Shown here: piece by piece, positions 6,857-20,039 of the stretch
Layout: every line of letters begins with the position of its first letter
How positions within the stretch are numbered: the first letter of the stretch is position 1
Source: an uncultured Opitutia bacterium
GTDB lineage: Bacteria; Verrucomicrobiota; Verrucomicrobiia; Opitutales; CAJWYM01
Reading direction: 5' to 3'
Length of the DNA: 42,218 bases
Assembly (NCBI GenBank): GCA_913049555.1
Contig: CAJWYM010000027.1
Location: 1-42,218 of the forward strand
Notes under the pieces: generated by a model
The model's database searches: none
Seen by the model: only the letters and a program-made list of their open reading frames with translations
What the model was told of the DNA's origin: nothing
Made by a program: the position numbers and the translations under genes

Positions 6857-7894
6857 TTATACTTCTATCCAATTATTGATTTTATTTCTTAAATATTCAA
6901 TCCAAGCAGGGTGAGTATTGAGACAAGGGATTTGCTCGAACTCTTTACCTCCTGCTTTTAAAAAGTCTTCTTGCCCCTCCATTGAGATTTCTTCTAATGT
7001 TTCTAGGCAATCTGCGACAAACGCGGGACAAATGACAAGAAGTTTTTCAACCCCCTCCTGTCCAAATCGTTCTAATTCAAAATCAGTGTAAGGGGTCAAC
7101 CATGGATCCCGACCCAGGCGAGATTGAAAAGATACAGAATACTTATCTTCAGGGATTCCGGCCTTTTCAACAAAGGACCGAGTGGCTTCAAAACATTGAT
7201 GTCTGTAGCAAGTTGCGTGAGCAGGATTTGAGGTTTGGCAACAATCAGATCTAGACAGACAATGTGCATTGGTAGGATCCGATTTACGTAAATGCCTCTC
7301 TGGAATTCCATGAAAAGAAAAGAGCAACTTGTCAAAGCCACGATCTAAATAAGGCTTTGCGTTTTCCACCATAGCATTGATGTAATCAGGGTCATTGTAG
7401 AACGGTTGCAAAGTTTGTGTAATTATTTCAGGAGCAATTTCAGCTAGACACTCTTTGACTCGAACTTCCACAGTCTCGTAACTTGACATAGCATACTGAG
7501 GATAGAGTGGAATAATAAATAAATCAGTGACCCCATCCTGTTTTAGATCTGTGATCACGTCGAAAATAGAGGGATTTCCATACCTCATAGCCAAGGCAAC
7601 TGGAACGGATACTTGTTCTTGAACCAATTTTTGAGTTTTTTTGCTAGTAACGATTAAAGGAGATCCCTCATCCGTCCAAACTTTAGAATAAGCCTCCGCT
7701 GACTTTTTTGGTCTAGTTGGTAAAATCAAACCTTTGACCAAGAGTGCTCGGATTGGTTTTGGAACATCAATCACTCTTTCGTCCATTAAAAACTCATCCA
7801 AATACACACGAACATCTTTAACAGAAGTCGATTCTGGCGATCCCAGATTCAATAATAACACTGCCTGTTTTTGAATATTTTTAGATGATGCCAC
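6857..7894 (-). CDS. hemH: Ferrochelatase with internal cysteine segment
   Basis: Inserts ferrous iron into protoporphyrin IX (or coproporphyrin III), the last step of haem synthesis. The 345-residue protein opens with the family signature AVLLLNLGSPES. The metal-site His is in SFHGIPERH (His195), and the conserved acidic motif CLETLEEI lies near 296-303. Between His195 and about residue 235 it carries five cysteines (212, 218, 219, 229, 234) in a roughly 23-residue span. This matches a known class of bacterial ferrochelatases, described from Myxococcus and Bdellovibrio, in which four internal Cys bind a [2Fe-2S] cluster; I recall this from the literature and have not aligned it. First gene of the hemH-galK-gpmI unit. 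Confidence 0.93.
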   Translation of the reverse strand: MASSKNIQKQAVLLLNLGSPESTSVKDVRVYLDEFLMDERVIDVPKPIRALLVKGLILPTRPKKSAEAYSKVWTDEGSPLIVTSKKTQKLVQEQVSVPVALAMRYGNPSIFDVITDLKQDGVTDLFIIPLYPQYAMSSYETVEVRVKECLAEIAPEIITQTLQPFYNDPDYINAMVENAKPYLDRGFDKLLFSFHGIPERHLRKSDPTNAHCLSRSDCCQTSNPAHATCYRHQCFEATRSFVEKAGIPEDKYSVSFQSRLGRDPWLTPYTDFELERFGQEGVEKLLVICPAFVADCLETLEEISMEGQEDFLKAGGKEFEQIPCLNTHPAWIEYLRNKINNWIEV

Positions 7895-8264: not shown

Positions 8265-10613
8265 ATGCGCTTTTACCATCGAATGCTCATTCTCTTTGTG
8301 GGTACCCTTTCTTTCAACATCTACTCAGTGGATGTTCTCCATACTTATACTGGAGCGGATGGAGGTAATTTTTTGACTGATTCCAATTGGGATACTGGCA
8401 CCTACCCCAATGCTAATAACCATACCGTAACTTTCAACTCAGCGAATAGCAATGATCCTGTTCTATCAGGTTCGGCAACCATTAAATCTTTGGTGAATCC
8501 CTCCGACTCTCTGAGCGAGTGGCGAACGATTACGGGAGGGGGGACTCTCAATTTATCTGCAGATTCTGGCAACACAACCCTCACAAATTTAGACAATCAG
8601 TTTCTTACTTTGTATACGGATTTAAATGTTCTCAGTGACTTAGATGTCAATTTAACTGCGGGCGATATAAAGTTAGTCCGAGCATTGACTGGAACAAGCA
8701 CCAAAACCATAAACATTACCGGTCCCACGAATCTTTCAAAAGCTTTTTACTTAGAACCTAGTTACAATGCTGACAACAATACCTTTGCTGGAACTATTAA
8801 ACTCAACAATCGCACTCGATTAGTTCTAGGAAGTGCATCTCCATCTGGATCTAACCAAACCGTTCAATCAACGGGCTTGACTATCAAAGCAGCAACCACC
8901 AACTCCTACCAAAACATCCTTTTTATGGATAGGAATCAGACCGATTATGACTTTCAACTAGACATTATTGACAATAACACTGCTAAATTAATTTTAGAAA
9001 TTAGCACTTCAGCAGGAGCCAATGCTTACACTTATTCTGGATCCATGTATTCTAGAAACAGTGCAGATTCCTCTGTGGCGGCAGTCAATCGAAGTTTACA
9101 ATTTTCAACCAATGGAAAAAATTTAACCATTTCTGGCGATAATACTAATCTTACGTTAGCTTCTGCCAGCTATTCCATGCAATTTCAAAACGGAAATGGA
9201 ACTACAAGCAAGGTTTATATAGACAATGAGGATGCTTTAGGCGAAAACAATGGCAATAAACTCACCATAAACGATGAAACGGGTGCGATACAAATGCACA
9301 TTCTAAACAATCGAACTCTCTCGGGGAATTTACTTATAAAAGGAAAAAACGATGGAGTAAGCAACTTAATCGGTGGAAGCGACAGTGGATCCGCCTCCGG
9401 TTCGACTACATTCAGTGGGATCGTGCAACTCAATTCAAACTCAAGCAATTCTAACACTCGAAACTTGGAGTTGTGGTCTAACAACAATGAATCTGTTACT
9501 TTTTCAGGGAGGATTTCAGACAAAATAGCATCCAATTACACCGACATTTCTAAAACAGGAACTGGAACCGTCATTTTGTCAGCAGACAATACTTATGCAG
9601 GTAGCACTACAGTGAGCGCAGGGACTCTTCAAATTGCTCATCAAGACGGATTAGGTGAAAGCTCTTCAAATACCTCGAATACAACTACAACCATTAATAG
9701 TGGGGCAACTTTAGCTTTCAATAACTCGAGTGCTATGACTGTCTACGAAAACTTAAACCTTTCAGGAACTGGAGATTCAGGGCTTGGAGCTATTGATATA
9801 ATAGATGGTTCTCACTCCATCCAAGGAACGATTGCTTTATCAGCCGCATCCACAATAGATGTCTCCTCATCCGATGACACCCTAACATTAAACGGGGTAG
9901 TAAGTGGTTCGAATGCCCTAACTAAATCTGGAACAGGAGCTTTAAAATTAGGTGCATCGAACACCTACTCAGGAAATACGACTGTTTCTGCTGGAAGTTT
10001 ATATTTGAATAACAGTACCGGCAGTGCCGTTGGTTCAGGCAACCTATCTGTTTCCTCTGGAGCTTATGTTTTTGGAACTGGATCTATCTCAGGATCTCTA
10101 ACCAACCTTTCTGGAACTATTGATGCCGGCGATGGAGCCAATCAAATTGGTAAAATTACAATGTCTGGCTCCAATACTGATTTTTCAAATGGAACTTGGA
10201 TTTGGAATGTAAGTGATGTTGAAGGTTCTACTCCTGGAACTCATTGGGATGCCATTGAGTTTTCTAGCACCTACAATCTGAACAATTTATCTGGGTCTCC
10301 ATTGACTCTCAAAATTAGAAATAAAACCAATGGAAATTATCAATCTCTTGAAGGTTTAAGCTCATTTGGTTCCTCCTCAAATTATGGAAACGCAGGAGCT
10401 GGGGATTTAAAAATCATGGACAACATTTCCAATTTCAATGACGCTTACTTTACTGTTGATTCAGACATTCTTAATATTAACTGGGAACTCAAGCAAGTTG
10501 GAAGTGCACTTTGGCTGTCTTACAATGCTGTACCAGAGCCTAGCACTTGGATCACAATTGGATTTGTATGTATTATTTTGAGTTGGAAATTTGTTAAAAG
10601 CAAATTTCTATAA
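8265..10613 (+). CDS. PEP-CTERM surface protein with autotransporter-type beta-strand repeats
   Basis: A 782-residue exported protein. The N-terminus is a signal peptide (hydrophobic core LILFVGTLSFNIYS). The body is Ser/Thr/Asn/Gly rich and Cys-free, as in beta-helical stalks, and includes two clear autotransporter-associated repeats: SKTGTGTVILSADNTYAGST (about 428-447) and LTKSGTGALKLGASNTYSG (about 552-570), each followed by TTVSAG. The C-terminus is a textbook PEP-CTERM sorting signal: VPEPS at 756-760, one membrane helix and a Lys-rich tail. By family knowledge, exosortase would process it and it would end up in the envelope or extracellular matrix; no exosortase gene is in the window. 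There is no beta-barrel, so it is not a true autotransporter. It has no clear Shine-Dalgarno. The monocistronic setting beside the secretion locus is notable. Confidence 0.88.
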   Translation: MRFYHRMLILFVGTLSFNIYSVDVLHTYTGADGGNFLTDSNWDTGTYPNANNHTVTFNSANSNDPVLSGSATIKSLVNPSDSLSEWRTITGGGTLNLSADSGNTTLTNLDNQFLTLYTDLNVLSDLDVNLTAGDIKLVRALTGTSTKTINITGPTNLSKAFYLEPSYNADNNTFAGTIKLNNRTRLVLGSASPSGSNQTVQSTGLTIKAATTNSYQNILFMDRNQTDYDFQLDIIDNNTAKLILEISTSAGANAYTYSGSMYSRNSADSSVAAVNRSLQFSTNGKNLTISGDNTNLTLASASYSMQFQNGNGTTSKVYIDNEDALGENNGNKLTINDETGAIQMHILNNRTLSGNLLIKGKNDGVSNLIGGSDSGSASGSTTFSGIVQLNSNSSNSNTRNLELWSNNNESVTFSGRISDKIASNYTDISKTGTGTVILSADNTYAGSTTVSAGTLQIAHQDGLGESSSNTSNTTTTINSGATLAFNNSSAMTVYENLNLSGTGDSGLGAIDIIDGSHSIQGTIALSAASTIDVSSSDDTLTLNGVVSGSNALTKSGTGALKLGASNTYSGNTTVSAGSLYLNNSTGSAVGSGNLSVSSGAYVFGTGSISGSLTNLSGTIDAGDGANQIGKITMSGSNTDFSNGTWIWNVSDVEGSTPGTHWDAIEFSSTYNLNNLSGSPLTLKIRNKTNGNYQSLEGLSSFGSSSNYGNAGAGDLKIMDNISNFNDAYFTVDSDILNINWELKQVGSALWLSYNAVPEPSTWITIGFVCIILSWKFVKSKFL

Positions 10614-10648
10614 GTTCTTATCAGGACCACTTATTCACTCGATTCTGA

Positions 10649-10665
10649 TTGAATTTTTAATTCAA
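10649..10665 (+). terminator. Weak AT hairpin after the PEP-CTERM gene
   Basis: TTGAATT-TTT-AATTCAA is a perfect 7-bp stem with a 3-nt loop, 35 nt after the stop. It is AT-only apart from one G-C pair and has no T-run afterwards, so it is a weak candidate for the transcript end. Confidence 0.25.
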
Positions 10666-10744
10666 GCTGAATAAACAAACCATTCCCCTTAAAACATTTT
10701 AATTTTACCCTTTTTTTGTTATTGAATATGTCAAAAGCTTTTAC

Positions 10745-10773
10745 TTGACAGTTATGCATTTCGTTCACATATT
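10745..10773 (+). promoter_or_regulatory. Sigma70-like promoter of the cNMP-fold gene
   Basis: Consensus -35 TTGACA at 10745-10750, a 17-nt spacer, and a -10-like CATATT at 10768-10773. The predicted transcription start (about 10780) is only a few bases before the ATG at 10786, and there is no Shine-Dalgarno, so the mRNA may be leaderless. Read by eye only. Confidence 0.4.
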
Positions 10774-10785
10774 CTAACAACCCTA

Positions 10786-11259
10786 ATGATAGTATTGACC
10801 CCAGCAGAAATTTCTAAAACAGGAATCAGCCTCAGCCTTGGATCGCTTGCAGTAAACATCCCAAAGGGAGAACTAGATGCTTTAGGAAGTATGGGCGAGT
10901 GGGTCGCCTCTGATGGAGAATTGATTGTTCAAGAAGGCACTTATCAAAAACATCTTTACACTATCTTGGACGGTGAAGTGGACGTATTTAAAAAAAATGC
11001 AGACACCAAACAGATTCTGATTCGTCTCAGTTCGGGCACTCTTTTCGGTGAGATTTCTTTGCTTTCAGGGGGACAAGCTTCCGCAAACGTTGAAGCTGCT
11101 GGAAAAGCCATTCTCTGGAGAATAAATCACAAACACCTTATGGAATTTGTAGAAGGGTACAGTAGTGGGGGTCAAATTTGTATCAATCTCGCTAAAGTTC
11201 TCAGTGATAGATTGGTTCAAGCAAATGAAAAAATTGTTGATTTAGCTTCCAAAACCTAG
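10786..11259 (+). CDS. Stand-alone cyclic-nucleotide-binding-fold protein
   Basis: 157 residues forming one CRP-type cNMP-binding beta-roll (roughly 30-125: GELIVQEG, YTILDGEVDVF, GTLFGEISLLSGGQASANVEA) plus a C-terminal helix. There is no DNA-binding helix-turn-helix, so it is not a CRP/FNR regulator. The phosphate-binding cassette keeps Gly88-Glu89, but where CRP has GQERSA this protein has GQASA: the phosphate-contacting Arg is absent. It may therefore bind no cyclic nucleotide, or a different ligand. It is the first gene before the tolC-ABC-HlyD set. cNMP domains are known as parts of some peptide-exporting ABC systems (NHLM-type and cyanobacterial HlyB-like), which suggests a regulatory subunit of this exporter. 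Confidence 0.75.
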   Translation: MIVLTPAEISKTGISLSLGSLAVNIPKGELDALGSMGEWVASDGELIVQEGTYQKHLYTILDGEVDVFKKNADTKQILIRLSSGTLFGEISLLSGGQASANVEAAGKAILWRINHKHLMEFVEGYSSGGQICINLAKVLSDRLVQANEKIVDLASKT

Positions 11260-11276
11260 CTCTTATCTAGCCATCC

Positions 11277-11344
11277 TTAATCGCTTTAATCGCCTTAATC
11301 ACCTCCCAAATTTCCTCTCTAATCACCTCTCAAATCACCTCTCA
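11277..11344. repeat. Short tandem repeats, 9-nt then 12-nt period
   Basis: Three 9-nt units TTAATCGCT, TTAATCGCC, TTAATCACC (11277-11303) run into 12-nt units: AATCACCTCCCA (11297-11308), AATTTCCTCTCT (11309-11320), then two perfect AATCACCTCTCA (11321-11344). All lie in the non-coding spacer between the cNMP-fold gene and tolC. The change of period suggests local slippage expansion. Confidence 0.8.
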
Positions 11345-11470
11345 AACTGGCTCTTAATACCTTCTAAAAAATTCACTGATACCTCCTGATTACCAACTGA
11401 TCCCTTTTAAAAGCCCTTTGGTTGCTCATTTTCAACTCCTTTTACCTCCTGCTTATATCCAAGTAAATCC
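11281..11470 (+). promoter_or_regulatory. C-rich, G-poor leader before tolC (candidate rut site)
   Basis: Counting by hand, this roughly 190-nt stretch of the plus strand has about 60 C and about 13 G, far from the balance elsewhere in the window, and it is largely unstructured. C-rich, G-poor RNA is what Rho loads on, so transcription into the secretion genes may be attenuated here. A simple pyrimidine-rich repeat remnant is the alternative. No promoter with good boxes is visible before the tolC ATG. Confidence 0.35.
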
Positions 11471-11486
11471 TTCTCCTATTTTTTAA

Positions 11487-12800
11487 ATGTATACCTCCAA
11501 CCTGCTGTGCTGGTTCTGTGTCGTGTTCTATTGGTTCTCACCTTTGGTTCTAGCGGATGGAAGTATAAGAACCAACAATTTAATTTTGTGGGATGCCATT
11601 CTAAAAGCCATAAAAACCAACCCTGACATTGTTGCCTCACAGCAAAATTTAATTACAAGAAAACAGCAATACCGACAAACTCAAGCCACTTATCTTCCTA
11701 GTATAAGAGCTGGTTTTTCTGCAAACTACAACTACAGCACCAACCTAAAAAAGGAACCTTATTCTGGATCCATATCAGCCACTCAGAAACTACTCAATCT
11801 CTCTCAAATTCAAACGATCCGAAAAAGTAAAAAAAGCTACGAGTCCTCTAATTTCTCTCTTGAGTCCACCAAACAAAATATAATTTTAACTACCACGAAT
11901 ACCTACATTGATTTGATTTCTCAATTTAAAGTAGTTGAGCTTTCACAAAAAAACTACCAACTCACGAAAAAACACGTGGATGCTACGCAACAAAGATATG
12001 CAGCAGGCGAATTGACCAAAACCGATGTGAATCAAGCCAAAAGTAGACTTGCAAATGCGAAAGCTACTCTTGTCAGAGCCATAAAAGTTGCAGACGTAGT
12101 CCGTAAAAGGTACAAACAAATTGTGGGCAGCATCCCACCCAAAATTCTAAAAATTCCTTCTGTAAATTCAGGAGACATTGAAAATCAGTTCTCTAAAAAT
12201 AAGCACACTTTATTTTCTCACCCGACATTACTTATAGCAAAATCCTCCCTCGAATCTGCAAAGATAGATCAAGTAGAAGCCCGCTCCGATTTTTATCCAA
12301 CCATAGATTTATCTGCCAGCGGAAATGTCACCTTGGAAAGTGAAACTCTTCAATTTGAAGATTACAGGGATAGCTACTTAGTTGGTGTAAGCGTTACGAT
12401 CCCTATCTTTTCAGGAGGAGGGCGATTCTATAAATTGAAAGAAAAGCTTTCTGAAAGAAAACTTGAGGAAGCCGAGTATGAAAGCACGAAGCGCCAAATT
12501 AAATTTGCATTAGACTCTGCTTTGTTAGAGTTGAATATAGCCAGAGAATTGGAAGAGGTTTTCATTGAAGGAGTCCAAGCATCGAAAACGGCTTTAGAGG
12601 GGGTCCAAGAGGAATTTGAGGCAGGTGCCAGAATTGCACTCGATGTTTTAGATGCTCAAAACGAATTGTTCAGCGCGGACATTTCGCTGGTAAAAGCTCG
12701 ATTTGATATTATCAAAGCTCAATTCCAATTACTTTCAAGTTCCGGAACCTTAACTTTATCTCAACTTAGAGTAGCAATGTCCGATCCAAAGAAGAGATGA
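11487..12800 (+). CDS. TolC-family outer-membrane channel of a type I secretion system
   Basis: 437 residues with an N-terminal signal peptide (hydrophobic LLCWFCVVFYWFSPLVLA). Two half-repeats of the outer membrane efflux family follow: long amphipathic coiled-coil helices (AILKAIKTNPDIVASQQN and, in the second half, HPTLLIAKSSLESAKI). Channel-tip motifs YAAGELTKTDVNQAKSRL and EFEAGARIALDVLDAQNEL match those of TolC proteins. By family knowledge it forms a trimeric channel docked to HlyD-type adaptors. Its stop overlaps the next start by 4 nt (ATGA at 12797-12800), so it is co-translated with the ABC gene. This is the first gene of the tight block tolC-ABC1-hemerythrin-ABC2-hlyD. Confidence 0.9.
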   Translation: MYTSNLLCWFCVVFYWFSPLVLADGSIRTNNLILWDAILKAIKTNPDIVASQQNLITRKQQYRQTQATYLPSIRAGFSANYNYSTNLKKEPYSGSISATQKLLNLSQIQTIRKSKKSYESSNFSLESTKQNIILTTTNTYIDLISQFKVVELSQKNYQLTKKHVDATQQRYAAGELTKTDVNQAKSRLANAKATLVRAIKVADVVRKRYKQIVGSIPPKILKIPSVNSGDIENQFSKNKHTLFSHPTLLIAKSSLESAKIDQVEARSDFYPTIDLSASGNVTLESETLQFEDYRDSYLVGVSVTIPIFSGGGRFYKLKEKLSERKLEEAEYESTKRQIKFALDSALLELNIARELEEVFIEGVQASKTALEGVQEEFEAGARIALDVLDAQNELFSADISLVKARFDIIKAQFQLLSSSGTLTLSQLRVAMSDPKKR

Positions 12801-14488
12801 ATAAAGGAGGTTTACAAGATTTATTAAGACTTCCCAATTTCAAATCGATGGGATTGGATTTAATGCTCTCTACAACTTGCATCAACTTATTATCTTTAGC
12901 TCTACCCTTAACGATGATGCAAGTGTTTGATCGTATTATTGGCAATAAATCAACGGGAACTTTAGCATGGCTGATATTAGGTTGCTTGACTGCAATGTTT
13001 TTTGAAAATGCACTCAAATTTGTAAGGACATCCATCAGCGGATGGCTCGGCGCAAGATTTGAATATAAATTAAGCAACGACGCAGCAAAAAAAGTACTTT
13101 CCTCTCGTTTGGATGATTTTGAAAAAGATCCTGTTGGAAAACATATGGAACGTTTCAATGCGATCAATGATCTTCGCAATTTTTACAGTGGACAAGTGTT
13201 TCAAGTCCTACTAGATCTTCCCTTCGCATCCCTGTTTCTTTTTGGAATTTATTTATTAGGAAATTCACTCGTTTTGTTTCCTATTGGGATGGCAATTCTT
13301 TATTTTCTGGTGTTCTTTTATTTGCAAAGCAAATACAAACAATCAAGAAACAGTCAACAGGATGCCGTTGAGGGAAGGATGAGTTTTCTAATTGAATCTT
13401 TGCGCAGAATTCATATGTCAAAGACTTTATCCATGGAGGAACAGATCTTAAGAAAATATGAACATTCGCAAAAAAAGGAGGCCTCTGCCAATCTAACCAT
13501 GCTGTTTTGGACCATGACTCCGAGTCAGATTGGTGGATTGTTTACACAGTGTATGATGTTTGGAACAATTTTTCTAGGAGCCTCCTCTATTATGGATGGT
13601 TCCATGACGATCGGTTCGCTTACGGCTTGTATGATGATGAGTGCTCGATTTATGACTCCAATTCAAAGTGTTTCAGGATTTTTCCTTCAATATACCAGAT
13701 CCAAGTTGGCAAAAGAAAAACTAAATCTGATTCATGAAATGCGAGACGATGTCCCAGAGGGTTTACCCATATTTCCTGAAATCAATAAAGGTTCCATCGA
13801 GCTCCAAGACATCTCTTTTAGATATGGAACAGACAAACCTTGGGTGGTAAAAAATTTAAACTTAAAAATTAGGGATGGGGAGCTTACAGTGATTACATCC
13901 AACAGAGGCGAGGGAGCAACTACTTTGCTGAACTTAGTTATGGGAACTTTAAAACCCGAAAAGGGCGAGGCGCTTATTGGCAATCACAGATTGAGCCAAT
14001 GGGATCATTCAGACTTCCGAGGACATGTCGAATTTCTCTCTTATCAACCACACATATTTAGCGGAACTATTCTTGAAAACATCACCATGTTTCATCCAGA
14101 AAGAGAGAGTGCCGCCTTAGAAGCTTCAAGTATTATTGGTCTTGTTGGTGGGGTTTCTCAGATGCCCCTCGGCTTTGCAACTCCTTTAACTCCTCAGTCT
14201 GCACTGATGCTCCCTGCCTCCATTTTGCAAAAAATTGCGTTATCTCGTGCACTTACAGTTCGACCCAAAATTCTCTTATTAGACCGAACAAGTTCTATGA
14301 TGGATACAACCAGTGAAGAGAGATTTTTTTGGTTGCTGGATCAATTAAAAGGTCAAAGCACGATTCTATTCGCGACAGACAGTTCGAGAGCCATGGAAAT
14401 GGCAGATAGAATCTACGAACTCAAAGAAGGTCATTTAAGCAATCTATTCCGAATTAGAACACAGATCAAAAAAAGGAATGTAAAGTGA
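12797..14488 (+). CDS. Type I secretion ABC transporter subunit with degenerate ATPase domain (ABC1)
   Basis: 563 residues: an N-terminal exporter-type membrane domain (about 20-300, several hydrophobic helices) fused to an ABC nucleotide-binding domain (about 333-550). The fold is recognisable (IELQDISFRYG; Q-loop SYQPHIFSGTILENI), but the catalytic residues are gone. The P-loop reads SNRGEGAT, with Ala374 where the essential Lys belongs; Walker B is ILLLDR, with Arg497 in place of the catalytic Glu; the LSGGQ signature is LPASI (472-476); and the H-loop His is Asp528. It should not hydrolyse ATP by the usual mechanism. It probably heterodimerises with the second ABC protein at 15822. Linked by 4-nt overlaps on both sides. 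Confidence 0.85.
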   Translation: MNKGGLQDLLRLPNFKSMGLDLMLSTTCINLLSLALPLTMMQVFDRIIGNKSTGTLAWLILGCLTAMFFENALKFVRTSISGWLGARFEYKLSNDAAKKVLSSRLDDFEKDPVGKHMERFNAINDLRNFYSGQVFQVLLDLPFASLFLFGIYLLGNSLVLFPIGMAILYFLVFFYLQSKYKQSRNSQQDAVEGRMSFLIESLRRIHMSKTLSMEEQILRKYEHSQKKEASANLTMLFWTMTPSQIGGLFTQCMMFGTIFLGASSIMDGSMTIGSLTACMMMSARFMTPIQSVSGFFLQYTRSKLAKEKLNLIHEMRDDVPEGLPIFPEINKGSIELQDISFRYGTDKPWVVKNLNLKIRDGELTVITSNRGEGATTLLNLVMGTLKPEKGEALIGNHRLSQWDHSDFRGHVEFLSYQPHIFSGTILENITMFHPERESAALEASSIIGLVGGVSQMPLGFATPLTPQSALMLPASILQKIALSRALTVRPKILLLDRTSSMMDTTSEERFFWLLDQLKGQSTILFATDSSRAMEMADRIYELKEGHLSNLFRIRTQIKKRNVK

Positions 14489-15825
14489 GCAAATCATCTC
14501 CTCTAGTAAGTTGGGGTGTCCAAACAGCTGAAACTGAATCTGATCTATCGCTTTCAGTTGGAAAAACTGGGGTCACAATGTTGGATGAGGGGATGGGACG
14601 CTTGATGGATTACGCCTTAATAATCAATGGGTATTTGGAAGATCCAGTTGCAGGAACGATAAAGCTTGATTCTACAGATAAATTTAAAGAATTGCTCAAC
14701 GAGATGATTGAATTTTCTAAATCATATTTTAGATTTGAAGAAAACTTAGTCAAAAAAAACTTTCTACCTTGGTTGGCATTTCATAAAGAAGAACATCAAA
14801 AAATTTTAAACCTTTTAAACGAAAATTCTAAAAACGTTGCTGCTGGTCAGCTTTATGTCACACCTGATTTCCAGATACAATTATTAGAATCTCTAATCAA
14901 CCATGTGAACAAAGCAGATTGTCCCTCTTTCAATCAGAAATACCGATCTAAAGCACTTTTAAATCTAAAATCTTCCGAGGAACTTCTTGTATTTGTTCCC
15001 TCTACAGGGATATCGCCTGTGGATCAAAATATTGAGACATTCTGTAAATCCCTAAGCCAAGTAAGTTCTTATTTTCAGTATTATGAGAATAAATCACCAA
15101 ATGAGAAAGAATGGTTCCAAATACAAACCTTTTTTAATAACTTTTACCACCACATACGCGCCCATTTTGACTTCCAAGAACAATTCATAAAAAAGATCGG
15201 TCTATCAGGATATTTGGCACACAAAAAAGATCATTGGGTATTTTTAAATTCAATTTCTAACTTTTGTAGAAAGATTGCTGCAAGACAAGCTGTGTTTAGC
15301 TCTAATATTCATCTAGGAACCCTTAACTGGTGGCTTACCCATTTCAAGGAAGAAGATTGTAAATTATTCGATTCAAAAAAAGTTTTTCGGTGCGCCTTGG
15401 AAGAATCGAATGTTTGGAATGATTTCGAGTGGATGTTTGCTGATTTCGAGGACAATTCAATTCAATTAAAATTAAAATTGGTTATTCAGGAATTCTTAAA
15501 AGCAATCCCACTGATTCTTAACAAAGAAGGAACTGAGAAAATTTCTAATCCATTCAAGTCTGCTCTGGAATCCTTAAAAAAAATGTTTAAGGAAGAGGAA
15601 AGCTCTGATCAAAGATTGAAATGTAGCATTCCTCATAAGATCGAACACAGAAATATTGAAAATCAAATTCAAGAAGTAATCGAGAGTATTGAAACAAACC
15701 GCGTGGGTCTCAATCATTTACTGGTAGAGGACACTCTCAGTTCCCTAGTATTTCATTACAATAGATCCGATTTTCGCGACTACCAACTTTTTAAAAATCT
15801 TTCTTTTGAGGAAATTCAGCCATGA
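14485..15825 (+). CDS. Protein with two degenerate hemerythrin-like repeats
   Basis: 446 residues, no signal peptide. Two repeats follow the bacteriohemerythrin ligand spacing exactly alike. Repeat 1: Tyr81 (first His lost), Glu85, His100-x3-His104, His140, Asp145. Repeat 2: His227, Gln231 (Glu lost), His246-x3-His250, His286, Asp291. In each, the first helix residue normally His is absent (DEGMGRL, DQNIETF). Neither repeat keeps a full diiron ligand set. A helical C-terminal third (about 310-446) has no repeat I can assign. The GTG start at 14485 overlaps the ABC1 stop by 4 nt, with AAGGA upstream, and its own stop overlaps ABC2 by 4 nt. It is thus embedded in the exporter operon and is probably an accessory or sensor subunit of it; its biochemical role is unknown. 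Confidence 0.75.
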   Translation: MSKSSPLVSWGVQTAETESDLSLSVGKTGVTMLDEGMGRLMDYALIINGYLEDPVAGTIKLDSTDKFKELLNEMIEFSKSYFRFEENLVKKNFLPWLAFHKEEHQKILNLLNENSKNVAAGQLYVTPDFQIQLLESLINHVNKADCPSFNQKYRSKALLNLKSSEELLVFVPSTGISPVDQNIETFCKSLSQVSSYFQYYENKSPNEKEWFQIQTFFNNFYHHIRAHFDFQEQFIKKIGLSGYLAHKKDHWVFLNSISNFCRKIAARQAVFSSNIHLGTLNWWLTHFKEEDCKLFDSKKVFRCALEESNVWNDFEWMFADFEDNSIQLKLKLVIQEFLKAIPLILNKEGTEKISNPFKSALESLKKMFKEEESSDQRLKCSIPHKIEHRNIENQIQEVIESIETNRVGLNHLLVEDTLSSLVFHYNRSDFRDYQLFKNLSFEEIQP

Positions 15826-17942
15826 GCATTGAAGAGAAGGATAAAGATACCTCATTTTTTCAACCTAGCAACTCTTTGTCAAAGGCTATTCGGCCCTTGT
15901 TAACCTCACTGGGTTGGCGCGGAGAGGATCAATCTCTCATTGAGGCAATGCCTAACAATCCAGATGATATCACTCTGGATGGATTGTTGGATACAATGGC
16001 GAATTTAGGCTATCATTACAATTGCGTTCATCGCTCTATCCATCGAATCAGTCAACGAGAACTTCCTTGTTTATTCATTCCCAAAGATGGAAAGGTTACC
16101 GTTATTGTCAAAAGTGATCATAAACACATATTTGGTTATGATACTGAAAATGAAAATTACAAAGTTTTTGAAGACAAAAGAAAGTCCGGTCAATGCTTCC
16201 TATTCTCTCGCTTGTCAGAAAGTGACCGCGCGTTGGATAAAGACACATCCCTATGGACTTTAAAATTAGCCAGACGATTTACTAGTTTATTTGGTATCTG
16301 TCTAATGATTAGCTTCTTGTTGAGTTTATTAGCATTTGTTACTCCGTTGTTTATTATGACAGTTTACAACCGTGTATTTGCATCTGGTGCGATTGACGCC
16401 ATGAAATACCTTGGATTCGGCATTCTCATTTATCTCATTGCTGATCTTGGTTTAAATATGATGAGGTCTTCTATCCTCTCATTTATAAGTTCGAGAATAG
16501 GCTACCTCCAAGGGAACCAACTCATGAGAAGAATCCTCTATTTTCCATCCAAGGAGACAGAGGGGATTCCCTTAAATTTACAACTTAACAAGTTGAAGGA
16601 TTTTGAAGCCATCAAAGATTTTTTTGGAAGTCCTACTATGGCTACTTTAATTGAACTTCCCTTCTTAGCTTTATTAATTGGGGGCATGTACGCTTTGGCT
16701 GGAACAGCTGCTTTAATTCCAATATTAGCAATTGCAATTTATCTAGTATTTGTTGGTTGTATTTACAAAACCGTCAACAACTACGTTATGGATGGAGGGA
16801 TCGCCATGATTAGTAAGCAAGACTTTTTACTCGAGATCTTAAGCAATCTTAGGGCAATCAAATACACCGCAACAAAGCTTCACTGGGAAGAAAAGTATGC
16901 ATCTCTCAGTGCAGAATCAGCCATCTCTAATTATAAAAGTGGACAAGTGAATGCGATCGTTTCCGCAGTTTCCGGCAGCATTGTATCTGTGGCTGGAATT
17001 TTAACCATCGGATTTGCAGTTACAGGTGTCATTTCAGGAGAAATGTCTTCAGGGGCTCTCATGGCTTGTATGCTATTAGTTTGGAGAATATTAGGACCCC
17101 TTCGCAACGGGTTCGGAACCATTCTTCACGCCCTTCAAATCTATCGAGGTGTTGGACAACTCGATAAATTTATGGAGCTAGAAATTGAATCGCCTCAAGA
17201 TTCTTACACATCCTCCAAGAAGAAGCTGAACGGCAACATTTACTTTCATAATGTAACTCATCGCTACAACAGAAATGCTCATCCAGCTCTTTATGAAGTA
17301 AATTTTGAAGTAAAACCAAAAGAATCCCTTTTAATAATGGGGCATGACGGTGCTGGTAAATCAACAATTCTTAAGATGATTATGGGTCTCTATACTTCTC
17401 AAAGTGGAGTAGTAGCTGTGGACAATACAAGTATTCGACAAACGAACCCTATCGAGTTAAGAAAAGCAATTACCTATGTGCAGGCTGAACCCTCATTTGT
17501 TCACGGTAGCATTTACGAGAATTTAAGATTAGTAAATTTAAATGCGAGTGAATTTCAGCTTGAGGAAGCTTTAAAACGAGCTGGAGTGTGGGCAGACATT
17601 ATTGAATTAGAAAATCAAGGAAAACATATTTTAGACCCGCTCCATTTGGATTCCTATCCAGCACATTTATTAAAAAGAATCAATACGGCTCGATTATTCC
17701 TCCAAGACTGTTCAATTATGTTGATAGATGAGCCAGACAGATCCTTACAAGACAGTCATCATACTCAAATCATAAAAGGACTCTCCACCTTCAGAGAAAG
17801 CGCGACATTAGTAGTTGTTTCTAACAATCCTCGTTATTTCGATTTAGCGGATCATATACTTTGGATGGATCAAGGTAGAATTAGGGAATTTGGAAGAAAA
17901 GAGGAAGTAGAAAAAGTTTGCTTAGAGTACCTATCTAATTAA
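15822..17942 (+). CDS. Type I secretion ABC transporter with C39-like N-terminal domain (ABC2)
   Basis: 706 residues. Residues about 20-130 resemble the C39-like domain of HlyB-type exporters (LPCLFIPKDGKVTVIV, HIFGYDTENENYKVF) but without the catalytic Cys context of a peptidase, so substrate binding rather than cleavage is expected. A membrane domain (about 150-440) and an ABC domain (470-700) follow. Walker A GHDGAGKST (507-515) and Walker B IMLIDEP (632-638) are intact. The signature LSGGQ is replaced by SYPAH (611-615), and the H-loop His appears as Asn in VVSNNP (about 666-670). Together with ABC1 this would give a heterodimer with at most one weakly canonical ATP site. It starts by a 4-nt overlap with the hemerythrin-like gene and is followed by hlyD after 8 nt. 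Confidence 0.87.
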   Translation: MSIEEKDKDTSFFQPSNSLSKAIRPLLTSLGWRGEDQSLIEAMPNNPDDITLDGLLDTMANLGYHYNCVHRSIHRISQRELPCLFIPKDGKVTVIVKSDHKHIFGYDTENENYKVFEDKRKSGQCFLFSRLSESDRALDKDTSLWTLKLARRFTSLFGICLMISFLLSLLAFVTPLFIMTVYNRVFASGAIDAMKYLGFGILIYLIADLGLNMMRSSILSFISSRIGYLQGNQLMRRILYFPSKETEGIPLNLQLNKLKDFEAIKDFFGSPTMATLIELPFLALLIGGMYALAGTAALIPILAIAIYLVFVGCIYKTVNNYVMDGGIAMISKQDFLLEILSNLRAIKYTATKLHWEEKYASLSAESAISNYKSGQVNAIVSAVSGSIVSVAGILTIGFAVTGVISGEMSSGALMACMLLVWRILGPLRNGFGTILHALQIYRGVGQLDKFMELEIESPQDSYTSSKKKLNGNIYFHNVTHRYNRNAHPALYEVNFEVKPKESLLIMGHDGAGKSTILKMIMGLYTSQSGVVAVDNTSIRQTNPIELRKAITYVQAEPSFVHGSIYENLRLVNLNASEFQLEEALKRAGVWADIIELENQGKHILDPLHLDSYPAHLLKRINTARLFLQDCSIMLIDEPDRSLQDSHHTQIIKGLSTFRESATLVVVSNNPRYFDLADHILWMDQGRIREFGRKEEVEKVCLEYLSN

Positions 17943-17950
17943 GGACATTT

Positions 17951-19261
17951 ATGAGTAGTGAAAACGACATATCCCACCTAACAAAGTCTGGCCTTCTTGA
18001 GGAAACTGGAACCCCCATGTTTCTCAAAATTTTCACTTGGTTTGCAACGCTCCTTTTCTTGGCTTTCGTTGCTTGGACAATTATCACAGGATTGGATGAA
18101 GTAGCTTCTGCTAAAGGTGAGATTATACCCAGTGGGCATGTTCAAAAAATCCAGCATTTGTCTGGAGGTATGATAGAGGGCATTCAAGTTGAAGAGAGAG
18201 ATTATGTTAATCAAGGAGATATTTTGTTAAAGCTAGATCCATTAACTTCTGAGACTCAGCTTGCACAAAGTGAAGGGCAAATGTTAACGCTAAAACTCAA
18301 AAAAGAGCTTTTAGAAGCTGTTATTGAGGATAGAAAACCTAATTTTGCAGAAATAGACAATATAAACCAAATTCTAATTAAAGAGCATCTGCAACAATAC
18401 AAACAACAATCGATGTCGGATCAGTCATCAAGATTGACATTGGAAAGTCAAATTGAACAAGCAAAATCCGATCTTGCTGAAGTTAATATCAATGAAGCCA
18501 AGTTGATGCGTAAACAAGAATTTCTTGAAGAGGAGATGAAAATAAGAAGAGGTCTTGTAGAAAAAGGTTTGAATTCAAAAATGCTGTTTTTAGCTCTCAA
18601 AAGACAACAGAGCGACTTAACGGGTTCCATAGAACTAATTCCTCCAACAAGATCCAAAATCAAAAAACGAATTGAGGAATTAAACAGTCGGTTGCAAGAA
18701 CAAGAATCTACGAAGATGAAAGATCGATTGAAAGAAATTAGCGGGCTAAAGGATCAAATCTTTAATCTTAACAAAGACCTTTTCAAGCACAGAAAAAGCG
18801 TCGAACAAATCACTATTACTGCTCCATTCAGTGGATATGTTCATAATTTAAAAAAACATGCAGTAGGCGAAATTATCTCAGGGGGTGAAGTCATCATGGA
18901 ACTTGTTCCGCTAGGGAAGGAATTTCTAGCTGAAATTAAAATCTCATCCAAAGACATTGGACACGTTGAGACAAATCAATCAGTTCTTCTAAAGTTCACA
19001 ACCTATGATTTTCTTAGATATGGCGGAATGAAAGGGCAACTTAAGGAAATATCTCCCGCAGCCTTTTCAGACAGCGGCGACCCTTATTACAAAGGAATTG
19101 TCAGTTTCGGTAAAAATTATTTTGGAAACGATCCCAAAAAAAATCCTATATTTCCCGGAATGACCCTAACAGCAGAAATTAATACTGGAAAAAAAACAGT
19201 CATAGAATACCTTTTAAAGCCTATTTTTGTTTCCGCCAATCAAGCAATGAGGGAAAGATAA
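17951..19261 (+). CDS. HlyD-family membrane fusion protein
   Basis: 436 residues linking the inner-membrane ABC exporter to the TolC channel. A short cytoplasmic N-terminus, one membrane helix (about 24-47), then the lipoyl-like half-motif HVQKIQHLSGGMIEGIQVEE (63-82) with GDILLKLD. Long Gln/Glu/Lys-rich coiled-coil hairpins (about 100-280) are followed by the returning lipoyl half APFSGYVHNLKKHAVGEIIS and a beta-barrel region ending in a conserved PGMTLTAEINTGKKTVIEYL tail. Length and order are those of type I secretion adaptors. AAGGA (17941-17945) overlapping the ABC2 stop is a good ribosome binding site, so it is the last gene of the co-translated block. Confidence 0.92.
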   Translation: MSSENDISHLTKSGLLEETGTPMFLKIFTWFATLLFLAFVAWTIITGLDEVASAKGEIIPSGHVQKIQHLSGGMIEGIQVEERDYVNQGDILLKLDPLTSETQLAQSEGQMLTLKLKKELLEAVIEDRKPNFAEIDNINQILIKEHLQQYKQQSMSDQSSRLTLESQIEQAKSDLAEVNINEAKLMRKQEFLEEEMKIRRGLVEKGLNSKMLFLALKRQQSDLTGSIELIPPTRSKIKKRIEELNSRLQEQESTKMKDRLKEISGLKDQIFNLNKDLFKHRKSVEQITITAPFSGYVHNLKKHAVGEIISGGEVIMELVPLGKEFLAEIKISSKDIGHVETNQSVLLKFTTYDFLRYGGMKGQLKEISPAAFSDSGDPYYKGIVSFGKNYFGNDPKKNPIFPGMTLTAEINTGKKTVIEYLLKPIFVSANQAMRER

Positions 19262-19412
19262 AAAAGTATATATAGTTTAGATTTACTATTTAGCACGTCC
19301 CATTTTTTTCATTTGACCCTAGTTTGCAATTGAACAAATTTTAGATACATTTTCTCTATACCCTACTAAATTTAACCTAATATAATAAAAAACTCCAACC
19401 CAAGGACTACAC

Positions 19413-19985
19413 ATGGCAGATGTGAACCAACCCGATAATATTGAACCAAACCCAGCAGACACTGGACCGCAAGCAGGAGGTGAAACGGTTCCTCCAGTAG
19501 GAGATCCCGGCCCAGCGGGTGGTGACACAGGACCAGCAAGTGCAGACATGGCTCCTCCTCCGGGTGACATGGCTCCTCCTCCAGGGGATATGGCTCCTCC
19601 AACAGATATGGCTCCACCTCCGGGTGACATGGCTCCACCAACAGGGGATATGGCTCCTCCAACAGACATGGCTCCACCTCCGGGTGATATGGGATCTGGA
19701 GCGGATGCTCAGGATCCGATGGCTGGCGGAACGGCTCCAGATACTGGTGGAATGCAAGAAACTGCAGCGCCCCCTCAAGGAGATGCAGGAGGTCCTGAAA
19801 GTGCAATGCCACCGGCAGGAGACTCTACACAAGAAGGTCAACCCCCAATGGACGACGGCGGTGCTAACATGCCAGCGGATTCAGCAGGTGCATTTGGAAC
19901 AGGTGCTGGAGAAGCACCAATAACAAATGACGCAGGTCCAACAGACACAGGTGCGGGAGTAGATGCTGATTCACTCTCGATTTAG
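19413..19985 (+). CDS. Acidic Pro/Gly/Asp/Met repeat protein, putative type I secretion substrate
   Basis: 190 residues starting at an ATG with a good AAGGA site 6 nt upstream. The sequence is built from Pro, Gly, Asp, Ala, Thr and Met, and contains no Lys, Arg, His, Cys, Trp or Tyr, so it is strongly acidic and surely disordered. Residues 45-91 are seven DMAPP(P/T)(G) units. There is no Sec signal or membrane segment. The last residues, GVDADSLSI, have the acidic-plus-hydrophobic look of C-terminal type I secretion signals. It lies 151 nt after hlyD and before a strong terminator, so it most likely is the exported cargo of the preceding machinery. No RTX nonapeptide is present and no enzyme domain is seen. 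The opposite-strand frames over it are artefacts of its repeat codons. Confidence 0.7.
   Translation: MADVNQPDNIEPNPADTGPQAGGETVPPVGDPGPAGGDTGPASADMAPPPGDMAPPPGDMAPPTDMAPPPGDMAPPTGDMAPPTDMAPPPGDMGSGADAQDPMAGGTAPDTGGMQETAAPPQGDAGGPESAMPPAGDSTQEGQPPMDDGGANMPADSAGAFGTGAGEAPITNDAGPTDTGAGVDADSLSI
19545..19685 (+). repeat. In-frame 60-nt tandem repeat (21+21+18 nt units)
   Basis: Seven coding subunits of the form GA(C/T)ATGGCTCC(T/A)CC... in the order 21, 21, 18, 21, 21, 18, 21 nt form a higher-order period of 60 nt (20 residues). 19561-19620 and 19621-19680 differ at only a few positions. In-frame and codon-preserving; likely to vary in copy number between strains. Confidence 0.9.
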
Positions 19986-20008: not shown

Positions 20009-20039
20009 AAGGCCGAAGATTAATTCTTCGGCCTTTTTT
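20009..20039 (+). terminator. Strong rho-independent terminator of the secretion locus
   Basis: A perfect 11-bp GC-rich stem (AAGGCCGAAGA at 20009-20019 with TCTTCGGCCTT at 20025-20035), a 5-nt loop, and a T-run to 20039. It lies 23 nt after the stop of the repeat protein and closes the region. Confidence 0.95.

Follow-up and report, generated by a model that had tools for sequence, protein, structure and literature searches.

What kind of protein exporter is encoded where a hemerythrin gene lies between two different ATP-binding cassette (ABC) genes? Textbook type I secretion relies on a three-part machine with an ABC homodimer as its motor. The window, the whole 42,218-nucleotide stretch of DNA from an uncultured Opitutia bacterium analysed here, holds a gene cluster with a different composition (Table 1). 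The seven plus-strand genes listed in an initial annotation are all present as open reading frames, and five of them, from tolC to hlyD, are joined as described there by three 4-nucleotide overlaps (tolC/abc1, abc1/hr, and hr/abc2) and an 8-nucleotide gap (abc2/hlyD). Two of the five encode ABC half-exporters (ABC1 and ABC2), and the gene between these two encodes a poly-hemerythrin (Hr) protein. The HlyD-type adaptor and the TolC-family channel both score above the curated cut-offs for type I secretion (TIGR01843 and TIGR01844). Analysis of the sequences suggested, with moderate confidence, that the cluster encodes a type I exporter whose two different ABC halves form a heterodimer, one of them a pseudo-ATPase, and which is regulated by a cytosolic poly-hemerythrin subunit.

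The ABC1-Hr-ABC2 cluster recurs in distant genomes

The poly-hemerythrin gene is located between ABC1 and ABC2 in 10 of 10 loci: the window, a distant genome of the same phylum (G304), and eight Pseudomonadota loci of one class. In G304, ABC1, Hr, ABC2, and HlyD are encoded on one strand by overlapping or nearly touching genes that are followed by a large repeat protein, with identities to the window proteins of 34% for ABC1, 34% for ABC2, 34% for HlyD, and 21% for Hr. HlyD directly follows ABC2 in seven of the eight Hr loci with a continuing contig; at L073 it is divergent and upstream of ABC1. An Hr profile search of the 48 genomes of the Pseudomonadota class, which may be Magnetococcia, matched eight genomes at E ≤ 1e-40, all in ABC1-Hr-ABC2 loci. 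Recurrence of the ABC1-Hr-ABC2 arrangement in such distant genomes indicates that the grouping is beyond chance.

The Hr cluster is rare in Verrucomicrobia and is not conserved across the phylum. The window's own genome has a single copy of the Hr gene. In the order, Hr searches gave matches in 4 of 132 genomes (E ≤ 1e-3); apart from that of the window genome, these were only single-domain stretches at E 3.6e-5 or weaker. In the class, 3 of 286 genomes matched at E ≤ 1e-15, with a full-length match only in the window genome and single-domain stretches of about 1e-16 in the other two. Across the phylum, 2 of 387 genomes matched at E ≤ 1e-6, namely the window genome and G304 (E 1.1e-17). Another genome of this class has a hemerythrin domain within an 892-amino-acid open frame (L122, G1038:C218). 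The co-occurrence of Hr and a degenerate ABC gene, suggested in the initial annotation as a check, is thus found in all ten loci, but the gene order is rare and not conserved across verrucomicrobia.

Other collections gave no further Hr cluster. No Hr match was found at E ≤ 1e-30 in 376 genomes of Alphaproteobacteria (the class of G550), a set without a positive control, or at E ≤ 1e-5 in three Azospirillum plasmid records and five genomes behind other loci, again without a positive control. The window Hr protein had no match among the plasmids or viral contigs searched, and the G304 Hr protein matched only single-domain hemerythrins on four plasmids. In the class of G304, the ABC1 profile matched 58 of 197 genomes at E ≤ 1e-60, with G304 at 1112 bits and the next genome at 235, while a single-sequence ABC1 scan of genome contigs returned only seven loci, weak or ordinary.

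ABC1 of the Hr loci has lost its catalytic residues

Inspection of the ABC motifs revealed that the two halves are asymmetric. In window ABC1, the Walker A lysine is lost, Walker B reads DR in place of DE, the signature is LPAS, and the H-loop histidine is lost, in agreement with the degenerate ABC protein of the initial annotation. Window ABC2 has an intact Walker A lysine and Walker B glutamate, together with a degenerate signature and H-loop. A motif table was compiled from sequences scoring >220 bits, with >300 residues covered and a clear type (ABC1 or ABC2). ABC1 of all 10 Hr loci lacks the Walker A lysine as well as the Walker B glutamate, a double loss seen in none of the 36 Hr-less relatives (one-sided Fisher 2.5e-10, with shared ancestry ignored). 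These 36 sequences, which include six halves of fused proteins and one protein truncated at a contig end, keep the Walker A lysine in 35 cases (arginine in the remaining one) and the Walker B glutamate in all. In ABC2 of the Hr loci, the Walker A lysine is present in 9 of 9 readable sequences and the Walker B glutamate in 8 of 8, and the H-loop histidine is lost in 7 of 8 readable sequences, versus 2 of 33 readable rows elsewhere. Non-canonical signatures occur in most of the family, with LPxG in most ABC1 proteins and LPAS, where the glycine is gone too, in the window and G304.

The pair shows the pattern of a degenerate-site heterodimer, in that lysine and glutamate are lost in ABC1 and present in its partner ABC2. 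A fully consensus composite ATP site is absent, with LPAS as the ABC1 signature and the ABC2 H-loop histidine lost. The motifs fit a single ATP site at most, built from the ABC2 Walker motifs and the odd ABC1 signature.

The best curated model for both proteins is the LssB type I exporter (TIGR03375), at 351 bits for ABC1 and 392 bits for ABC2 against a cut-off of 693, and the window ABC proteins reach none of the curated type I ABC subfamilies tested (TIGR03375, TIGR01846, and TIGR01842). The TIGR03375 cut-off is also missed by all seven separate relatives tested; a fused Azospirillum protein exceeds it at 855 bits, the sum of its two halves. TIGR03375 aligns the C39-like N-terminus of ABC2 from residue 19 onward. 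An active C39 peptidase was not recognised in ABC2: Peptidase_C39 (Pfam) gave no match at E ≤ 1, and the alignment shows no cysteine at the N-terminal place of the C39 cysteine.

The Hr protein contains tandem hemerythrin domains with altered ligands

Hemerythrin matches in the window Hr protein exceed the curated cut-offs (PF01814, 26.5 bits, cut-off 25.3; TIGR02481, 84.8 bits, cut-off 51.75). The initial annotation had described a double hemerythrin-like protein; three hemerythrin-type domains were delineated instead, at about residues 5–149, 151–295, and 298–433. When scored with a domain model built from 33 domains of nine other Hr proteins, they reached 73.0, 60.3, and 18.1 bits. The best of 200 shuffles scored 6.6 bits, which supports the third domain despite its divergence. 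Pfam recognised three to four hemerythrin stretches per protein in the five relatives examined and only one in the window protein, in which NCBIfam recognised two; the Pseudomonadota Hr loci encode three or four tandem domains.

Comparison of the ligand positions revealed a regular pattern in the nine relatives. H73, the fourth ligand in classical numbering, is replaced by glutamine in 24 of 24 non-final domains, while all seven metal ligands are present in the final domain of 9 of 9 proteins. In the window protein, each domain has five of the seven canonical ligands, and H73, H77, H101, and D106 are kept in all three. The seven-ligand diiron site (five His, one Glu, and one Asp) is therefore found in none of the domains. 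As ligands are lost in all three, the window copy is not expected to form a classical diiron O2 site, and classical oxygen binding by this protein appears unlikely.

Further hemerythrin genes were observed near related exporters. Besides its four-domain gene, L075 carries a single-domain hemerythrin gene (7159–7749) directly upstream of ABC1. At L112, chemoreceptor (MCP), CZB, and hemerythrin domains share one frame (10138–11649) a few kilobases from an ABC1-HlyD pair without ABC2.

The Hr loci are a subclade of a two-ABC exporter family

Of 398 Pseudomonadota genomes searched with the ABC1 profile, 190 had matches at E ≤ 1e-75, which include type I exporters of the ordinary kind. From these, 40 regions were picked by hand, mostly top matches; seven of them are Hr loci, and one further Hr locus (L134) was added later. 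A six-frame recount of the 40 regions identified ABC1, ABC2, and HlyD in 31, a fused ABC pair with HlyD in three, and an ABC1-ABC2 pair without HlyD within the stretch examined in another three (L074, L077, and L082). The remaining three comprise a region with a second ABC of unclear type (L110), one cut by the contig end (L098), and the L112 region.

In a plasmid search with ABC1, four Azospirillum records stood at the top. The three plasmids examined encode ABC1 and ABC2 as a single chain of 1354–1378 amino acids, followed by HlyD, and a giant Ig-like protein is encoded divergently upstream. The fused chain is 32–33% identical to the window in its ABC1 part and 30–31% in its ABC2 part. This fusion points to a heterodimer, and together with the conserved ABC pair it weighs against a homodimer of a single ABC protein; we infer the ABC1:ABC2 dimer from fusion and co-inheritance. 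We also considered whether Hr-less ABC1 proteins carry a fused hemerythrin in their C-terminal extensions. Those read are mostly proline-rich low-complexity tails with no hemerythrin similarity, and at L098 the extension is where a fused ABC2 begins.

In both the ABC1 and the ABC2 tree, the former calculated with the motif columns removed, the ten Hr loci form one clade with a Shimodaira-Hasegawa-like approximate likelihood ratio (SH-aLRT) support of 100. Next to it stands a small clade of loci that lack Hr and in which the ABC1 motifs are intact. Both are quick trees with several long branches, including those of the window and G304. By sequence, the Hr clusters are a subclade of a broader family of type I exporters with two different ABC halves.

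Candidate cargo proteins adjoin the exporter genes

The gene at 19413 encodes a 190-residue protein that contains no lysine, arginine, or histidine, as the initial annotation had noted. Among 481 overlapping 190-residue windows in 12 other chosen open reading frames of the window, none is free of lysine and arginine. Repeats of 60 bp are arranged in tandem within the gene (19543–19692). The protein has no Pfam or NCBIfam family match and no RTX repeats; at the corresponding position, related loci encode proteins of an adhesin-like or acidic repeat type. In G304, the gene directly after hlyD encodes Cadherin_5, Big_9, VCBS, and LamG domains and runs off the contig; a second G304 contig with an exact 151-bp overlap to the end of this adhesin gene closes the frame in RTX repeats and an acidic tail.

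All six Pseudomonadota Hr loci with a long enough contig encode an acidic, largely low-complexity protein with the N-terminal motif LDxMTVL...DLxAxE, adjoining hlyD, abc2 (L073), or, divergently, abc1 (L076). Hr-less two-ABC loci are also flanked by frames with this motif, some of them very short and acidic, and the motif may be a targeting or docking signal of the exporter family. It was also seen near the two-ABC loci L084, L087, L089, L090, and L100–L102. Beside two-ABC loci of the sister clade, frames of 68–94 amino acids carry LDL(D/N)xxTVLL (L078, 33–248, minus strand; L079, 409–612, minus strand; L083, 2049–2330, plus strand). The asymmetry at these three loci is reversed, with the ABC1 motifs kept and arginine at the ABC2 Walker A lysine.

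Table 1. Features of the window and of related loci, with positions and supporting evidence.
Feature	Position	Strand	Evidence or remark
782-amino-acid protein, PATR/beta-strand repeats	window 8265-10613		PEP-CTERM-like C-terminus (VPEPSTW...), by eye only
Stand-alone cyclic-nucleotide-binding-fold (cNMP) protein, 157 amino acids	10786..11259	+	PF00027, E 2.9e-17; no further domains found
12-bp tandem repeat, 4.2 copies	window 11297-11346		between cNMP gene and tolC
TolC-family outer-membrane channel, type I secretion	11487..12800	+	PF02321; TIGR01844, 265 bits (cut-off 225)
ABC1, ABC half-exporter without C39-like domain, predicted pseudo-ATPase	12797..14488	+	PF00664 + PF00005; motif table
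Poly-hemerythrin (Hr) protein	14485..15825	+	PF01814/TIGR02481
ABC2, ABC half-exporter with C39-like N-terminal domain	15822..17942	+	PF00664 + PF00005; TIGR03375, 392 bits (cut-off 693)
HlyD-type periplasmic adaptor	17951..19261	+	TIGR01843, 337 bits (cut-off 209)
Acidic Pro/Gly/Asp-rich repeat protein, putative secreted substrate	19413..19985	+	composition, position
Intrinsic-terminator-like hairpin, right behind the 19413 gene	20009..20035	+	11-pair stem (6 G-C), then T-run
LDxMTVL(Q/L)...DLxAxE proteins beside two-ABC exporters	L073 12017-12577; L075 14854-15927; L076 149-4021 (-); L081 1-1761 (-); L103 14104-14997; L134 6325-7146
Fused ABC1-ABC2 chains, about 1320-1380 amino acids	L039 13806-17942; L040 9857-13921; L041 9857-13948; L104-L106

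The operon plausibly ends at the hairpin behind the 19413 gene; terminator-like sites are not enriched in the region (8, versus 7.3 in shuffles). A PADLOC scan returned nothing beyond general cNMP/TIR-effector and ATPase matches.

A proposed mechanism and its alternatives

In the proposed model, ABC1 and ABC2 would form the heterodimeric exporter of the inner membrane, and HlyD and TolC would complete the channel. ABC2 would supply the C39-like docking domain and the sole intact Walker A/B pair, while the pseudo-ATPase ABC1 would contribute at most a degenerate signature motif to the ABC2 site. Hr may act as a dedicated cytosolic subunit, translationally coupled to both ABC halves and most likely docked on the side of the pseudo-nucleotide-binding domain (NBD), where it would gate or tune export. 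The Hr proteins of the relatives combine a full diiron ligand set in their final domain with two or three glutamine-substituted sites, and with these they could sense O2, NO, or redox state. The remaining ligands of the window Hr would fit at most a one-metal site, and a structural or altered regulatory role seems more likely for this copy. The cargo would be an acidic or adhesin-like protein encoded beside the exporter genes. A bolder version is a metal- or oxygen-gated type I machine that has given up one ATPase and in which poly-hemerythrin controls the O2-, NO-, or redox-responsive export of acidic or adhesive surface proteins, with the window Hr as a metal-poor scaffold; we put it forward only tentatively and consider it rather doubtful.

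Several observations weigh against this model. The ligand loss of the window Hr differs from the pattern of the relatives, with H25 gone in three of three domains, H54 in two, and E58 in one, and a single-sequence structure prediction of the protein was too poor for use (predicted local distance difference test score, pLDDT, 41.7). Loci without Hr can show loss in the opposite half: in L109, ABC2 has neither the Walker A lysine nor the Walker B glutamate, and in L078, L079, and L083 arginine replaces the ABC2 Walker A lysine. As the Hr loci form one clade, the correlation between Hr and a dead ABC1 is not independently repeated and probably reflects a single evolutionary event, and the Hr-less relatives presumably work without a hemerythrin subunit. 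On the cargo side, neither the 19413 protein nor the G304 adhesin has the N-terminal motif of the Pseudomonadota candidates. Big_9 is present in eight of the ten Hr genomes and missing from the window genome (G000) and G727. A search of the window genome gave neither a Big_9 nor an RTX match, which leaves the 19413 protein as the best candidate cargo and the putative substrate of the exporter.

Hr might instead be a protein for iron or O2 handling or for signalling that is only encoded in the same operon and is co-regulated with secretion, for example under microaerobic conditions, without being an exporter subunit. Loose hemerythrin-like candidates are indeed frequent in the Pseudomonadota class (8–37 per genome at first look, in all 48 genomes), the single-domain gene of L075 lies immediately upstream of ABC1, and hemerythrin signalling proteins with cNMP or MCP domains occur within several kilobases of the Hr-less L108 and L112. 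Yet the Hr gene is internal, between the ABC genes rather than at the operon end, in all ten loci of two phyla, and its presence coincides with the loss of the ABC1 catalytic residues; we therefore regard operon sharing alone as unlikely. Alternatively, ABC1 may be decaying and the window locus may be what is left of a two-ABC exporter that has degenerated and no longer functions, which we consider very unlikely. The dead ABC1 Walker motifs, the degenerate signatures of both ABC proteins, the degraded Hr ligands, and the long branches of the window rows would fit such decay, but every frame is open, the genes are coupled by 4-nucleotide overlaps, and the ABC2 Walker A/B motifs are intact. Moreover, the same ABC1 losses are found in ten loci, of which the closest is only 40% and G304 34% identical to the window, indicating that these losses have been kept for a long time. 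No close relatives turned up in the genomes searched.

The initial annotation treated all seven genes as one machine, with the free cNMP domain as a component, which would place the exporter under cyclic-nucleotide regulation. The conserved set of two ABC proteins, Hr, and HlyD makes a single machine the natural reading for these parts, but the cNMP protein is not a conserved component. A six-frame search of 45 related loci at E ≤ 1 found two cNMP homologues, both near Hr-less loci; the nine Hr loci besides the window, several of which are on short contigs, gave no match. One is a similar stand-alone 153-amino-acid protein about 5.8 kb upstream of the two-ABC exporter of L085, and the other, at L108 (2–1114), combines a hemerythrin domain with two cNMP-binding stretches and lies about 3 kb from the two-ABC exporter. 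These neighbours, a weak match of the window protein to TIGR03896, a bacteriocin-transport-associated family (32.5 bits, cut-off 161), and the lack of a plus-strand terminator-like site from the cNMP gene to tolC speak for a seven-gene machine. Against it stand, besides the missing homologues, the 227-nucleotide gap before tolC with its 12-bp repeat and, judged by eye, the lack of the arginine that binds phosphate in CRP. A seven-gene machine is accordingly quite unlikely in our estimate; the cNMP protein is probably a neighbour rather than a core part, and it may be linked to the exporter through signalling.

The family with two ABC halves falls outside the curated NCBI subfamilies for the separate proteins tested, and its Hr clade couples the loss of one ATPase to the presence of a hemerythrin-type gene. 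The locus is also a natural case for asking how far a protein exporter depends on ATPase chemistry. If Hr is a subunit, type I exporters would, to our knowledge, gain their first metal-site regulator, and oxygen control of adhesin export would become directly testable.

Comparison with known systems

Canonical type I systems (HlyB/HlyD/TolC; LssB/LapB, TIGR03375; PrtD, TIGR01842) resemble the locus in their ABC exporter, HlyD, and TolC, and further in the LssB-like C39-like domain (ABC2) and the VCBS/RTX adhesin beside hlyD (G304). The window differs in having two ABC halves, one a pseudo-ATPase and both below the cut-offs for type I ABC proteins, plus a poly-hemerythrin gene. Bacteriohemerythrins and signalling proteins such as DcrH share the hemerythrin domain by sequence and, in the last domain of the relatives, the full ligand set; Hr differs from them by three to four tandem domains encoded between ABC genes, by the H73-to-glutamine change in the non-final domains of nine relatives, and, in the window, by the absence of H25.

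The initial annotation matched the combination to no described system known to it, which stands only in part. A two-ABC export operon with HlyD is already in print: the excerpted text of PMC2887384 presents the NHLP/NHLM bacteriocin export operon (TIGR03794, TIGR03796, and TIGR03797), with one ABC gene that has a C39 peptidase-type domain, one that does not, and HlyD. The window scores far below the corresponding cut-offs (ABC1, 164 of 709 bits for TIGR03797; ABC2, 160 of 853 bits for TIGR03796), lacks a recognisable C39 peptidase, and has a hemerythrin. No leader-peptide precursor of the NHLP type was noted at the locus, where no systematic search for one was made. Heterodimers with a degenerate site are likewise well known, and the excerpted text of PMC7756269 covers TmrAB, TM287/288, and TAP, asymmetric pairs with one dead NBD. 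These usually keep one consensus site, whereas in the Hr clade the partner signature is degenerate (LPxG; LPAS in the window) and the ABC2 H-loop histidine is lost in 7 of 8 readable sequences. For the hemerythrin version, no description of a type I or two-ABC exporter with hemerythrin was found in the open-access literature searched; hemerythrin is an unrelated table entry in the excerpted protein table of PMC11784015, and the excerpted text of PMC8277102 likewise holds no such exporter.

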